The notes under the pieces: generated by a model
Databases searched by the model: none
Told to the model about the DNA's origin: nothing
The model's input: only the letters and a program-made list of their open reading frames with translations
Part shown: positions 8,283 through 47,304 of the stretch, piece after piece
Layout of the letters: the number at the start of each line of letters is the position of its first letter
Numbering within the stretch: position 1 is the stretch's first letter
Position numbers and translations under genes: made by a program
Source: Mariprofundaceae bacterium
GTDB lineage: Bacteria > Pseudomonadota > Zetaproteobacteria > Mariprofundales > Mariprofundaceae
NCBI GenBank assembly: GCA_027018935.1
Contig: JALUXZ010000174.1
Coordinates: 1 to 47,304, forward strand
Direction: 5' to 3'
Length of the DNA stretch: 47,304 bases

Positions 8283-8766
8283 TATGAGAAATAATGTAGA
8301 AACTCTATCAAGAGAAGGCCTATACAGGCCGTGGCTTTTTTTAGTATATCACGCGCCATGCGTAAGCGTTTGTTCTCTGCTTTTAAACGAGAAAGCTCGG
8401 CTTGTTCCTTGCTCATATGACCTTTGCTAGGGAGGTGCTGATTAACTCAATGCATGGTGTCTATGCGCCCAAAATTACCAACGCCGGCGTTGGCAAACTT
8501 AACAATAGCGGTGCTATTACTTGCGCTTGCCGCCTTGGGGTTGAAAATTCTGAATCGCATATCCACTCATCCAGAGTTAATCAGCACCTCCCAAGGAAAG
8601 GCTTCCTCTCCATGACTCTGACTTTCATTTTTCCAACGACTGAGCATGTTGTAATTAATGCCAAGATTGCGTGAGGCTTCGGCTATCGAATAACCTGCTC
8701 AAGTATCAAACCAACCGCTTCGCGTTTGAATTCTTTGGTGTATGTCGTGCGTTTCCTGTGACTCAT
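8283..8766 (-). pseudogene. IS3-family transposase OrfA remnant, frameshifted and interrupted by a MITE-like insertion
   Basis: Minus-strand translation: MSHRKRTTYTKEFKREAVGLILEQ / (frameshift) YSIAEASRNLGINYNMLSRWKNESQSHGEEAFP / (insertion 8430-8592) / HMSKEQAELSRLKAENKRLRMARDILKKATA; 3' part missing, downstream boundary approximate. Confidence 0.85.
8430..8592. mobile_element. 163-bp MITE-like element, TIR GGGAGGTGCTGATTAACTC ... GAGTTAATCAGCACCTCCC
   Basis: 19-bp perfect terminal inverted repeats, interrupts the IS3 orfA remnant; second copy in opposite orientation at 47156. Confidence 0.85.
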
Positions 8767-41194: not shown

Positions 41195-42661
41195 CTACCC
41201 GTCAAGCTCCAAGTCATCCCATATATCATCCACCCGCGCTTTAATTTCCTCAGTCATTTTAATCGGTCTGCCCCATTCACGATCTGTTTCCCCAGCCCAT
41301 TTATTGGTTGCATCAATACCGACTTTCGAGCCAAGACCTGCAATCGGTGAAGCAAAATCGAGATAGTCAATGGGTGTATTTTCAGCCATCGTAAAATCAC
41401 GCACTGGATCACAACGTGTCGAAATTGCCCAAATTACTTCTTTCCAATCACGACAATCGACATCGGCATCGACTACGATAATGAATTTTGTGTACATGAA
41501 CTGTCTTAAATACGACCAAATACCAAACATCACGCGTTTAGCATGACCCGCATAACCTTTGTTTATCGACACCACAGCCACACGATATGAACAGCCTTCC
41601 ATCGGTAAATAAAAATCAACAATTTCAGGGAATTGCTTCTTCAAAATCGGTACAAACACTTCATTGAATGCCAGCCCCAAAATGGCAGGTTCATCAGGCG
41701 GTTTACCAGTATGTGTAGAGTGGTACATGGCATCTTCACGCATGGTGATTTTATCCACCGTGAATACAGGGAACATCTCCGTTTCATTGTAATAACCTGT
41801 ATGATCACCATAAGGCCCTTCTTCGGCATATTCATCCAAAGAAACATAACCTTCAAGTACAATTTCAGATGATGCAGGCACTTGTAAGGGAATACTCACG
41901 CAGTCCGTTAGTACTGTTTTTTTACCGCGCAATAAACCAGCAAATTGATATTCGGACAGGGTATCTGGAATCGGGGTTACTGCTGCAAGAATCGTTGCCG
42001 GATCTGCGCCAATCACCACAGCACATGGAAAGCGTGTTGCCCCTGATTTTTTCGCTTCTTGATGATCTTGTGCACCGCCACGATGTTTTAGCCAGCGCAT
42101 AATCAACTTGTTTTTACCAATTTTCTGCTGCCGATAAATCCCCATATTCTGACGGTCTTTATTCGGGCCTTTGGTAACCACCAAGCCCCACGTAAGCAAG
42201 GGAGCTACATCTTCTGGCCAACATGTTTGAATCGGCAATACATCCAAATCTACATCATCACCCGCGATGACAATTTGCTGACAGGCGGCTTTTTTCACAA
42301 GCTTGGGGTTCATATGCATGACTTTTTTCAAGATGGGAAATTTCGCCCAAGCATCTTTCAAACCTTTGGGGGGCTCTGGTTCTTTCAAATACGCTAGCAA
42401 CTCGCCAATTTCACGTAGCTCATTCGCAGACTCTCGTCCCATACCCAAAGCAATACGGTCAGCCGTACCAAACAAGTTGGTCAATACAGGCATATCGTAA
42501 CCTTTTACATTTTCAAACAGCAAAGCAGGACCCGCAGCTCGTAGTACCCGATCAGAGATTTCAGTAATTTCCAACTCTGTACTAATCGGGGTTGAAATTC
42601 GTTTTAATAAGCCTCGTTTTTCAAGGTCTTGCGTAAATTCACGCAAGTCTGCATAACTCAT
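41195..42661 (-). CDS. ubiD: UbiD family decarboxylase
   Basis: [22 protein letters not shown]-like [49 protein letters not shown]. Confidence 0.94.
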
Positions 42662-42984
42662 ACTTTATCCTCGGCAATATCAAAAATGCTGTCCAATTTT
42701 GCCAAAGAAAACACATCCCGCACAGTATCTTGCAAATCATGCAGCACAAAAGAGCCACCTGAATGACGCGACCACTGCAAACCTTCCACCAAGGTTGCAA
42801 TGCCTGATGAGTCCATAAATGGCACACCCGATAGCTGCACATGAATTTCTTTGTTTTGATCAACGAACAATGGCTTTAACGCATCCCGAAGGCGCGGTGA
42901 TGTATGTATATTCACAGTTCCTTGCACAGCAACTTGCACGACACCCACATCACTTTTCTCTACCGTTACATCAAGCTTCATCAT
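42658..42984 (-). CDS. STAS-domain anti-sigma-factor antagonist (RsbV/SpoIIAA-like)
   Basis: VHVQLSG-type [27 protein letters not shown] with the conserved phosphorylatable Ser. Confidence 0.9.
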
Positions 42985-43468
42985 CCTCTCCCTTCAAATC
43001 TTGCTTACATATATAAATAAGCGTCCACTGATTCCCATCAGCCAACGCAACATGTTCCACCACATCCATAATCGAGTGAATCAACTGAACACCCAATCCG
43101 CCAGGGCTAATATTGGCAGCACTACATTCTTCATCATGCCCACAAGCCCAACCAGTAATATCCGCAACTGGGGCATAATCACGAAACATAAAATGCAATT
43201 CCTGCATGCAATCATCATTGACATGTATTTTACTTTCAAACTGCACTCTGCCTGGTGTGTCGCCATAACCATGATCAATAATATTAGCAAACAGCTCATC
43301 CACAGCCAGTGCCACACGGTTGGTTTCCATATCCGTCAGACCTGCACGCAAAGCAATAACCTCCACCATAGAATGCAGTACATGTACACAATCACGCTGA
43401 CAAACAAGTTCAAATTTCAGTTTTCCAATTTGGCTTTTATCCAAATCTCGCATTTCAAAATCAGGCAT
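42971..43468 (-). CDS. anti-sigma regulatory factor-like ATP-binding protein (HATPase_c_2, RsbW-like)
   Basis: VALAVDELFANIIDHGYGDTPG N-box; SPGGLGVQLIHSIMDVVEH G-box. Confidence 0.9.
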   Translation of the reverse strand: MPDFEMRDLDKSQIGKLKFELVCQRDCVHVLHSMVEVIALRAGLTDMETNRVALAVDELFANIIDHGYGDTPGRVQFESKIHVNDDCMQELHFMFRDYAPVADITGWACGHDEECSAANISPGGLGVQLIHSIMDVVEHVALADGNQWTLIYICKQDLKGEDDEA

Positions 43469-44301
43469 TATTTGGCCATTTCTTTTAAAATATTTTGAGC
43501 TTTCAATTCACCCACTTTATCTTGCAAAATAAGGTAAATATCTCTAGCTCGCTCCGCATAATCAAGTCGCTCTTGCTCAGAGACTTCACCCTTCAAGCCA
43601 GCCAACAACAATGAAGCATTTGCCGACAACCTTGGCGCGCCTACCCGCTCACAAAGCTTCAGCACTTTTAATGCCTGTACTTTTGCAGTCTTTTGATCAC
43701 CCTTTTCTCTAGCCAATAAGCTTAAACCCATCAAAGCTTTAGCCTGTAGCGACAGTCCAGAACGGTTGTTCCCTGCTGCTAAAATAGCCTGCATGTAGGC
43801 TTGTTCTGACTGCAATGTTTGGTGTTGTAAATACGCCAACTTAGCTGACATCAAATATATATCGGCAGGCAAATTAGAAGCCAAGCCCTGCATGTTTAGC
43901 ACAACTTTTCCTTGCGCAATACGCAGCAATGCCAACTGCAATTCCGCCCGTTTTTCAAGGGCTAAAAAACCATGATGTTGCGCCAATAACAAGACCTTCT
44001 GCAAAGCCTGCTCTGCCTTACCATCTTGCCCCTCAGCTTTGTAAGCCATGGCTAAATTATACCATGCCGCAGTGATCTTTGCTGGAGCATTGGCTAGCTT
44101 GGAGAGCTGTAATGCACGCTCAAAAGCATGCACTGCCGATGCCCAGCGCTCTTGATGCATCGCCTCCACACCAGCATGCGTAAAATCTTTCATATGTTGC
44201 ACATAAATATTTTCAACAATAGGCACACTTGTTTTATGCTCACCACCACATGCCGATAACAACACACTTAGCGACATCAGTAACAGTAAAATACGTATCA
44301 T
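43468..44301 (-). CDS. TPR-repeat lipoprotein
   Basis: Lipobox LLSACGG; TPR-like AWYNLAMAYKAEGQDGKAEQALQKVLLLAQ. Confidence 0.85.
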   Translation of the reverse strand: MIRILLLLMSLSVLLSACGGEHKTSVPIVENIYVQHMKDFTHAGVEAMHQERWASAVHAFERALQLSKLANAPAKITAAWYNLAMAYKAEGQDGKAEQALQKVLLLAQHHGFLALEKRAELQLALLRIAQGKVVLNMQGLASNLPADIYLMSAKLAYLQHQTLQSEQAYMQAILAAGNNRSGLSLQAKALMGLSLLAREKGDQKTAKVQALKVLKLCERVGAPRLSANASLLLAGLKGEVSEQERLDYAERARDIYLILQDKVGELKAQNILKEMAK

Positions 44302-45311
44302 GGTTTCATATCCAGCACTGGTGGAGCCATTTCAAAACTATCTTGCGGCTGTTTTTCAGGCGCACCTCCACCCAACAGCCATGAATCTTGCATATTTCTC
44401 AGCAATACCTGCATTTCTTTCAATGTTGCACGCGAATCGCGTGCCAAGCCTGGTAATTCAGGAGTCATCTCAGACAAATCTGAAGCAACAAGCTTTAGTG
44501 ACGATGAAAGTTCATCAACATGCACCAGCAGCTCATTGGTTCTTTGTATAGTTTCAGGGGCATGCTCACCAAGGCTTTTGGATAACGGCTTAATATTTTC
44601 CAGAATCTCCGTGGTGGCAGAGAGTGAATCTGCCAATCGCAAAGCAACTTTTTGTTCATCCAAATCTTCCGCCACATTCCCCAACTGCGCCAAAGCTTGG
44701 GTAAACGTCTGTACAGCCAATTGCAGACTTTTTCCATCAACTGAGCTGGTTATCTCACGTAATGATGCCATACCCACCCGTAAATCACTATCTGGATTAT
44801 TCATCCATACCGATAACGATGCCAACTCTCGCAACAAAATATTAGCATTGCCTACTGCAGGCTTTAGCTCTGTTAGCAAGTCTTCCAATGAAGCCTTGGT
44901 TTCATAATTTAAGACCTCACCACTCTCAAGCATCGGCTTGCTAATATCACCACGGGTTAACTCAACAACTTGCTCACCCAACAGCCCTTCTTTAATGAAT
45001 TGGATCACAGCACCTTGATGAATCATATGATGGTAACGTTCAAGCAAACGCAATGAAATACGCACTTGCCCTTCATGTTGCAATTCAATTTGATCAATAT
45101 GACCAATCGCAAAACCTTGAAATTTCACTGACTGTCCTTCATAAAAAGAGCTTGCAGAAGGAGGCTCTACAAACAAATAAAACTTTTTAGAAAACACATT
45201 ACTACGCACACTCACAATCAGCACAACCAAAATTAGCGCGCCAATACCCAGCATCACAAACCAACCAACTTGGCGTTTTATATCCGATACAAAACTTGTA
45301 GAATCTACCAT
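44298..45311 (-). CDS. MlaD/MCE-domain protein
   Basis: N-terminal TM then FYEGQSVKFQGFAIGHIDQIELQHEGQVRISLRLLERYHHMIHQGAVIQFIKEGLLGEQVVELTRG MCE domain; C-terminal coiled region. Confidence 0.93.
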   Translation of the reverse strand: MVDSTSFVSDIKRQVGWFVMLGIGALILVVLIVSVRSNVFSKKFYLFVEPPSASSFYEGQSVKFQGFAIGHIDQIELQHEGQVRISLRLLERYHHMIHQGAVIQFIKEGLLGEQVVELTRGDISKPMLESGEVLNYETKASLEDLLTELKPAVGNANILLRELASLSVWMNNPDSDLRVGMASLREITSSVDGKSLQLAVQTFTQALAQLGNVAEDLDEQKVALRLADSLSATTEILENIKPLSKSLGEHAPETIQRTNELLVHVDELSSSLKLVASDLSEMTPELPGLARDSRATLKEMQVLLRNMQDSWLLGGGAPEKQPQDSFEMAPPVLDMKP

Positions 45312-45997
45312 ATACCACTCACATCAGGCACATTATCGCATTCAATCTCATATGTCTGTGAAAATTCCAAGCCAGAGCCTTCATGTATGGATGATGTCAG
45401 ATATAATACCCCTGCCCCTAACTGCAACATTGCCTCTTGGGCTTTATCACGGAATATTTGCAAACGCTCAGGCGGCATGCCTACATGAACTTCCTGCGCC
45501 ACAATCACATCAGGTCGTTTGAGTAAGCAATGCCCCAAACTAACCAAAGCATGCGTATAAACCGAGCGCTCACCCGCTTGCTCATAAAGCAATGAGCTCA
45601 AACCAAGAAATTCAGCAACCGCTTCTACTTCACTTTCGGCTCTCTTTAAGCATGATGTGTCTTCAGCATACAAAAAAGGCAACAATAAATTTTCGCGCAT
45701 ACTTAAATTTGCCAATAGCCCACGCCGTCGAATCATACTAGCAACACGGGCACAATAAGCAGGTTTACCAGCCACCACACGCTTTTTGCCATAATTCAAC
45801 CACACGTATGGATCATCACCCTCACCCAATACAAATTGAGGAAAGAAACGATCCAAAAACATATATTGCATATTACAGTTCATCACAAAACGAACATGCT
45901 TACCACGACAGATATAATCTTCAGGCAGCTTCCTACCAGCCACCTCCATCGCACGCCAATGCAGCTCATCACTCACAGGTTCCATATTAGCACCCAA
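45305..45997 (-). CDS. degenerate MlaF-like ABC transporter ATPase homologue lacking canonical nucleotide-binding motifs
   Basis: Positioned between MlaE and MlaD genes; ASMIRRRGLLANLSMRENLLLPFLYAE aligns with the MlaF Q-loop region, KRPDVIVAQEV with Walker B (PDLIMFDEP); no GxxxxGK(S/T), no LSGG. Confidence 0.75.
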   Translation of the reverse strand: MGANMEPVSDELHWRAMEVAGRKLPEDYICRGKHVRFVMNCNMQYMFLDRFFPQFVLGEGDDPYVWLNYGKKRVVAGKPAYCARVASMIRRRGLLANLSMRENLLLPFLYAEDTSCLKRAESEVEAVAEFLGLSSLLYEQAGERSVYTHALVSLGHCLLKRPDVIVAQEVHVGMPPERLQIFRDKAQEAMLQLGAGVLYLTSSIHEGSGLEFSQTYEIECDNVPDVSGIW

Positions 45998-46791
45998 ACC
46001 ACATCCAAGAATAACATTAATAACAACGCTCCCAAAACGCCATACGTCGCACGCACAGGAATTTGATTTGGATCATTTCCGACCCTGCTGCCCTGATCCA
46101 AAAGCATCATACATGACAACATCGGGTAAAACATACCCTTTACCATCATCCCAATAAGCCCATTGAGATCCATACCACGCTGCACTTCAAATAAAAACTG
46201 ACTAAAATTCAACGTATATGTCCATGATACAACCAGACCACCGACCCATACAGACACAACGACAAACACAAAGGTTAACACCAAACCACATAAAGAAAAT
46301 GCTAGAATTCGCGGCAAATATAAATATTCATAAGGAGAAACACCAAGGCTGTGCAACAAAGCATCCTCACCGCGCGACTGCATGTGCCCAACTTCCGTCA
46401 CCACTGCAACACCCGAGCGTGCCAATAAAAAAATCGCCACTAAAAATGGTGCCAATTCTTGCACAAGAATTCCATTCATCAAACTACCAATCAATGATAA
46501 GTCTTGAATCCTACGCGCAAAGTCCACAATATTATAAACAGCAAGAACCCCTGTTCCTAAGGCTATCGCAATCACCCAAGGCAGACTTTGAACACCTGTA
46601 AAATAAACTTGGCGCACCACCACATTCATCACTGCTGGTCTAGAGATCCAGCGCATACGAAGGAAAACTTGCAATATTGACCCAAAAAGGCGAAAAAATC
46701 GTTTCATACCCTGCAAAGCTTGCAACGAAAAGATGCCTACTCTGTCTGCGCGTCTATGCCATTGGTCGATATGTGTTTGTAACATGCCCAT
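45973..46791 (-). CDS. MlaE-family ABC permease
   Basis: VYFTGVQSLPWVIAIALGTGVLAVYNIVDFA, ELAPFLVAIFLLARSGVAVVTEVGHMQSRGEDALLHSLGVSPYEYLYLPR; start codon uncertain (ORF extends to 46839). Confidence 0.92.
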   Translation of the reverse strand: MGMLQTHIDQWHRRADRVGIFSLQALQGMKRFFRLFGSILQVFLRMRWISRPAVMNVVVRQVYFTGVQSLPWVIAIALGTGVLAVYNIVDFARRIQDLSLIGSLMNGILVQELAPFLVAIFLLARSGVAVVTEVGHMQSRGEDALLHSLGVSPYEYLYLPRILAFSLCGLVLTFVFVVVSVWVGGLVVSWTYTLNFSQFLFEVQRGMDLNGLIGMMVKGMFYPMLSCMMLLDQGSRVGNDPNQIPVRATYGVLGALLLMLFLDVVWVLIWNL

Positions 46792-46853
46792 AGTCCATTT
46801 ATAAGCCTTTATAAAAGAAACACAAGCGATGCAGATCACAGCATTGTATTTAT

Positions 46854-47028
46854 GTAACTATTCAGCATAGTTATAAATTGGTTCGTATCTGTTCAGATTG
46901 CCGCTGATTTGTTCGAGACCACCAACAGCAGGCGCTTTTAGGCGAGGCAGAAAAGCGCAACTTACTGCTGTAAGTGAGCATTTTCTAACGCAGGTGTCGG
47001 GCGAATCGGTGGTAAGCTGAATAGTTAC
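46854..47028. mobile_element. 175-bp MITE-like element, TIR GTAACTATTCAGC ... GCTGAATAGTTAC
   Basis: Terminal inverted repeats and core GCGCAACTTACTGCTGTAAGTGAGC; homologous to 37678-37829. Confidence 0.85.
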
Positions 47029-47040
47029 GTATTTATTTAC

Positions 47041-47155
47041 TATAGGGCACCTCGAAAAACCTCGCACAAGTTAAACGACGTTGATTTTCGCTCATAGCAA
47101 GGCGCAATAAAATGAGTAATAGCATCGCTATTATCCATTTTGTTCAACGCCGCTA
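47041..47155. repeat. small palindromic element with core AATGAGTAATAGCATCGCTATTATCCATTTT
   Basis: Core palindrome flanked by AGCAAGGCG ... CAACGCCGCT as in the other MITE-like elements; boundaries approximate. Confidence 0.6.
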
Positions 47156-47304
47156 GGGAGGTGCTGATTAACTCTGAATGCGTGGATATGCGATTCAAAA
47201 TTGCCAACACCAAGACGGCAAGCGCAAGTAATAGCAACGCTATTGCTAAGTTTGCCAACGCAGGTGTTGGTGATTTTGGACGCATAGGCACCATTCATTG
47301 AGTT
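47156..47304. mobile_element. second copy (inverted) of the 8430-8592 MITE-like element, cut by the window end
   Basis: Starts GGGAGGTGCTGATTAACTC; reverse complement closely matches the 8430-8592 element. Confidence 0.85.

Follow-up and report, generated by a model that had tools for sequence, protein, structure and literature searches.

Why the gene in the ATPase position of an MlaE/MCE locus should encode a protein devoid of every catalytic motif of an ATPase is the question raised by one end of the window, the 47,304-nucleotide stretch of Mariprofundaceae DNA analysed here. The first-pass annotation had described an uninterrupted 230-codon frame that lies between an intact MlaE-type permease gene and an intact MCE protein gene and overlaps both. 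The frame, designated psiF, could be confirmed: it covers 45305-45997 of the minus strand, shares 25 bases with the permease gene (mlaE') and 7 with the MCE gene (MCE'), and both neighbours are sound members of their families (Pfam MlaE, E = 3e-38; MlaD/MCE, E = 1.3e-9). It occupies the gene position of MlaF, adjoining an MlaE and an MCE/MlaD gene, within a run of overlapping genes:

45973..46839, minus strand: MlaE', deeply diverged MlaE-type permease (Pfam), strictly co-occurring with psiF
45305..45997, minus strand: psiF, ABC pseudo-ATPase in the MlaF position, 230 residues from a TTG start (226 from an ATG at 45985)
44298..45311, minus strand: MCE', membrane-anchored protein with a single MCE domain and a long helical C-terminal region (Pfam, model)
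43468..44301, minus strand: TPR lipoprotein (lipobox LSAC), fourth gene of the block (Pfam, locus comparison)
42971..43468, minus strand: RsbW-like HATPase_c_2 protein, overlapping the block
42658..42984, minus strand: STAS protein of the anti-sigma factor antagonist type
41195..42661, minus strand: end of the run, a gene that we take from general knowledge of the family to encode a UbiD-type decarboxylase

The alternative ATG of psiF is in frame four codons in, and the starts of distant relatives fall near it. The intergenic region upstream of mlaE' (46850-47304), inside which an 84-residue open reading frame falls (47040-47294), is a patchwork of three dispersed repeats, some 178, 120 and 152 bp long, that recur dozens of times across the genome. 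The window contains the 152-bp element once more at 8444-8595, with about 89% identity.

Fold and catalytic motifs of psiF

The window copy of psiF has no Pfam match, ABC_tran included, and a genome-wide ABC_tran search of the source genome did not pick it up, so that Pfam-based annotation would miss it. Its single sequence matches ABC ATPases of the PDB (phmmer, E = 2.9e-4), a family profile of 25 orthologues matches them with a best E of 5e-11, and a profile-profile comparison with intact MlaF gives E = 6.6e-8. The profile-profile comparison and the HMMER alignments to PDB ABC ATPases bear out the alignment with MlaF-like ATPases that had been drawn by eye along the length of the protein. 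An AlphaFold model (pLDDT 84.7, pTM 0.84), whose input alignment consisted only of the window sequence and scan-derived orthologues, has the RecA-like and helical subdomains of an ABC ATPase, and its Foldseek matches in the PDB are ABC ATPases throughout (TM-scores of about 0.6), among them the MlaFEDB structures 7d06, 6xbd and 6xgy and the Mce1 structure 8fed (E about 1e-10). The predicted structure, one of the points on which the first-pass annotation had said that its reading could fail, thus came out in its favour. Judged by profile matches and predicted fold, psiF is a diverged ABC ATPase by descent, and its being a non-ABC protein is ruled out on the same grounds.

The alignment places RGLLANLSMRENLLLPF at the Q-loop region and locates the remnants of the other motifs, with GVLYLTSS falling near the H-loop:

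45854..45898, minus strand: former Walker A region, residues 34-48 (HVRFVMNCNMQYMFL); no P-loop, but a strand and a helix joined by a two-residue turn (DSSP of the model)
45668..45712, minus strand: most conserved segment, residues 96-110 (ANLSMRENLLLPFLY), in the Q-loop/helical subdomain that faces the permease in ABC ATPases
45551..45577, minus strand: former LSGG signature, residues 141-149 (AGERSVYTH), from alignment and orthologues
45491..45511, minus strand: former Walker B, residues 163-169 (DVIVAQE), with Gln at the Asp position in all but one of the 34 orthologues
45380..45412, minus strand: former switch-histidine region, residues 196-206 (GVLYLTSSIHE), from alignment and orthologues

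The loss of Walker A, LSGG, the Walker B Asp and the switch His, first noticed in the window copy, extends to all 34 orthologues. None carries the Walker A pattern GxxxxGK[ST], and in the model a turn of two residues, joining strand 34-38 to helix 41-51, stands where the P-loop would be. LSGG is absent from the signature position throughout the 34, the sole match to the pattern (VWISGGDKN, in orthologue L005) lying elsewhere. The position of the Walker B Asp holds Q in 33 orthologues and E in one. The adjoining position of the catalytic Glu, which the window copy retains (AQE), drifts across the family (E in 22, D in 11, Q in one), so it is not maintained as a catalytic residue. The Q-loop Gln is not kept either (position 90 is R in 21, H in 9, N in 2 and G in one), and no conserved His is found in the H-loop region of the 34 orthologues, where the register is uncertain by one or two residues. 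With about 230 residues against about 268 in MlaF, psiF has no room for the C-terminal handshake extension of MlaF, whose absence is judged by length alone. It is not among the matches to the MlaF equivalog NF008809; the intact MlaFs of the source genome do match this model but likewise score below its cut-off.

Maintenance of psiF and its four-gene block

Is psiF then a gene in decay? Orthologues occur in 24 of 37 Mariprofundaceae genomes and in one genome of a second (sister) family of the order; a weak match in genome G015 is by score an ordinary ABC protein. A scan of 84,980 species, which used one short conserved peptide pattern and could miss remoter relatives, found them in Mariprofundaceae and other Zetaproteobacteria, Mariprofundus species included, with two weak matches outside the class. 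The host Zetaproteobacteria are marine iron-oxidisers. The frame is open in all 34 orthologues, which come from many independent assemblies, and the motif loss is common to every one down to 22% identity, that of the second family included. For close pairs dN/dS is 0.09-0.12 for psiF (0.23 for the more distant G008), 0.05-0.08 for intact MlaF and 0.03-0.17 for MlaE', as computed by Nei-Gojobori on stop-to-stop frames that include the gene overlaps, with dS nearing saturation in wider pairs. A ratio of about 0.1 indicates a maintained function; with the open frames, it sustains the earlier proposal of a maintained pseudo-ATPase rather than decay. Among the orthologues no close relative has intact motifs, the observation that the first-pass annotation had said would point to recent decay or error, and both, assembly error included, are ruled out by the orthologues and the dN/dS. 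On this evidence, evolution has preserved a motif-less psiF for a very long time.

What has been preserved is a different part of the protein from that in MlaF. In the psiF family, positional entropy reaches its minimum at the Q-loop/helical segment (0.80 bits over 24 residues, and 0.34 for residues 101-110, compared with a mean of 1.83 for the family) and at the P-loop position equals the family average (1.80 bits); in canonical MlaF orthologues the P-loop has 0.00 bits and the Q-loop region 0.26, the two sets being different species samples whose figures are to be compared within each set. The conserved core of psiF has moved from the P-loop to the permease-facing segment. In ABC transporters this segment faces the coupling helix of the permease, as in MalK. 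In the Mla system the coupling helix of MlaE binds MlaF (PMC7790496) and is received by the cleft of the nucleotide-binding domain (PMC7367683).

The gene order mlaE'-psiF-MCE'-TPR is constant in the genomes compared. MlaE' (at least 43% identity) occurs in the same genomes as psiF and is absent from the others examined, being partial at contig ends in G003 and G020. Nine psiF-less genomes have none of the four block genes at the ubiD locus. Thus psiF, MlaE', MCE' and the TPR lipoprotein are gained and lost together as a four-gene block. In the model of MCE' only the membrane helix and the MCE domain are reasonably confident, the stem having a pLDDT of 30-47. The case for the STAS and RsbW-like genes as further members of a psiF module is weakened, since both persist beside ubiD where psiF is absent (STAS in all nine of those genomes, RsbW in four). 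The STAS gene of the window bears the DSSG motif typical of phosphorylatable antagonists. In the Mariprofundaceae genome G018 (L162:5376-17015) the psiF block is preceded, at a distance of a few kb, by the canonical mlaFED set, and frames of 204 and 1027 residues separate the two.

Intact MlaF genes and the origin of the block

All 41 genomes searched encode an intact-type canonical MlaF, whether or not they carry psiF. The source genome itself has two, each beside its own MlaE and MCE genes, which answers the question of a catalytically intact copy elsewhere in the genome that the earlier annotation had raised. On contig C186 of genome G000 (L048:2-3089), the start of an intact mlaE-mlaF-mlaD set overlaps the end of the preceding gene, presumably an alanine racemase by resemblance.

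In a tree of MlaE sequences, MlaE' forms a deep, long-branched clade, and the only outside sequence to join it (99/96 support) is that of G041, a member of another class of the phylum whose MlaE is the closest to MlaE' outside the order; both branches are very long, and attraction between them is possible. The four genes recur in G041 in unchanged order (L154), the TPR match being weak (E = 7.8e-6). Unlike psiF, which retains none of these motifs, its F protein (L154:5313-6122) keeps Walker A (GPNGNGKT), Walker B (FIDEP) and the switch His (SSHN); MSEL replaces its LSGG, and its Q-loop Gln is also gone. This protein may represent a halfway stage towards psiF, and if the kinship holds, the signature would have been lost before ATP binding. 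A survey of 45 further MlaE loci of the phylum found no other degenerate F: every adjacent F has Walker A, and the complete genes also have Walker B and LSGG. A general degeneration of MlaE-linked ATPases is ruled out by this survey; only the G041 cluster, inspected beside the 45 loci, had an F without LSGG. Two MlaE genes, G363:C8 (L151) and G041:C8 (L193), have no detectable adjoining MlaF-type gene.

What a dead ATPase may do at a putative lipid transporter

The reading that we favour, with a probability of roughly 0.6, is that psiF is a maintained structural or gating pseudo-ATPase on an MlaE'/MCE' complex that does not power itself. psiF would take the place of MlaF on the cytoplasmic face of this specialised complex, and conservation and gene linkage together suggest that it docks, through its conserved Q-loop/helical segment, on the coupling helix of MlaE'. 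There it would serve as a structural or gating subunit with no canonical ATP binding or hydrolysis. A composite ATP site of an ABC dimer is formed by Walker A of one subunit and LSGG of the other. Since psiF has neither half, no complete site could form in a psiF homodimer or in a psiF-MlaF heterodimer; a mixed dimer with one working site is therefore ruled out on motif logic, and the complex would not be ATP-powered for as long as psiF sits on the permease. At other times MlaE' could be served by other ATPases. The complex would most likely be a passive or otherwise regulated lipid conduit, built from MlaE', hexameric MCE' with its long helical stem, and the TPR lipoprotein, probably in the outer membrane.

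It is possible that MlaE'/MCE' is instead driven by an intact MlaF encoded elsewhere, which would exchange with psiF as an assembly factor, placeholder or inhibitor. This is the leading rival, and we consider it unlikely but deserving of serious attention. Intact MlaF genes are at hand in every genome searched, MlaE' keeps conserved residues in the region of the MlaE coupling helix, and there is a precedent in MceG, one unlinked ATPase that serves several mycobacterial Mce transporters (PMC9947336). However, the intact MlaF genes of the source genome are each accompanied by MlaE and MCE partners of their own, from which MlaE' is very diverged, intact MlaF is equally present where psiF is absent, and a mixed dimer would have no complete site. 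On sequence grounds psiF may act as a regulator, as a scaffold, or as a lodger where another ATPase is borrowed.

Improbable by comparison is a role of psiF mainly as a signalling platform, in which it would engage the STAS protein in the way that MlaF engages MlaB, the phosphorylation state of STAS being set by the RsbW-like kinase. MlaB is indeed a STAS protein bound to the helical subdomain of MlaF (PMC7367683), and the STAS and RsbW-like genes continue the same overlapping gene run. Yet STAS, with or without RsbW, remains beside ubiD where the block is absent, RsbW is missing next to psiF in G011, and psiF, judged by length, has no C-terminal extension of the kind with which MlaF completes its MlaB site. 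We give still less weight to the idea that psiF binds a nucleotide or another phosphate ligand through an unusual site: the polar residues R36, Q44, R144, H149 and Q168 are invariant or near-invariant in the family, but the turn at the modelled P-loop spans only two residues and the known phosphate- and magnesium-binding residues are missing from all members. That psiF is a recently decayed gene, a sequencing error or a non-ABC frame, as its failure to match ABC_tran might suggest, merits almost no credence against 34 open-frame orthologues, the low dN/dS, the ABC fold and the profile matches.

The structural or gating reading of psiF gains definition from known systems. MlaF of MlaFEDB (E. 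coli, Acinetobacter; 6xbd, 6xgy, 7d06) shares with psiF the ABC fold, the gene position and an alignable Q-loop/helical segment, but psiF lacks its Walker A, LSGG, Walker B Asp, Q-loop Gln and switch His. Asymmetric ABC transporters such as CFTR also tolerate the loss of catalytic motifs, with one degenerate ATP site and one complete composite site, whereas psiF dimers would keep none. The mycobacterial Mce1 and Mce4 clusters, like that of psiF, have no working ATPase gene of their own, but their MceG is catalytically intact and shared by transporters (PMC9947336), whereas psiF is a dead homologue in the place of the ATPase gene. The minimal MlaEFD system of Veillonella parvula likewise has a long protein of the MlaD type, which has been proposed to span the envelope without MlaC (PMC10665443); its MlaF closely resembles that of model organisms (PMC10665443), whereas psiF is dead and its block has a TPR lipoprotein gene in addition. 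A more far-reaching scenario, which we regard as tentative and at somewhat less than even odds, is that the whole MlaE'-psiF-MCE'-TPR complex is a nucleotide-independent envelope conduit that has abandoned ATP for good and lost the signature first, as in G041, and ATP binding later, with psiF kept to hold or gate the permease.

A search of open-licence papers for MlaF or ABC pseudo-ATPases returned nothing on point, and psiF appears, within that literature, to be a case not previously described, in which a separate ABC ATPase subunit has lost every catalytic motif and is still under selection. A transporter that contains it would have to be scaffolded, gated or powered in an unusual way. The accepted view of MlaFEDB-type transporters is that ATP drives them; in which direction phospholipids travel, and what powers their traffic, is still debated. 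If our reading is true, an ancient natural MCE system with a dead ATPase would reveal which components can function in the absence of ATP, and would offer a ready-made test of passive lipid movement by MlaE and MCE proteins.
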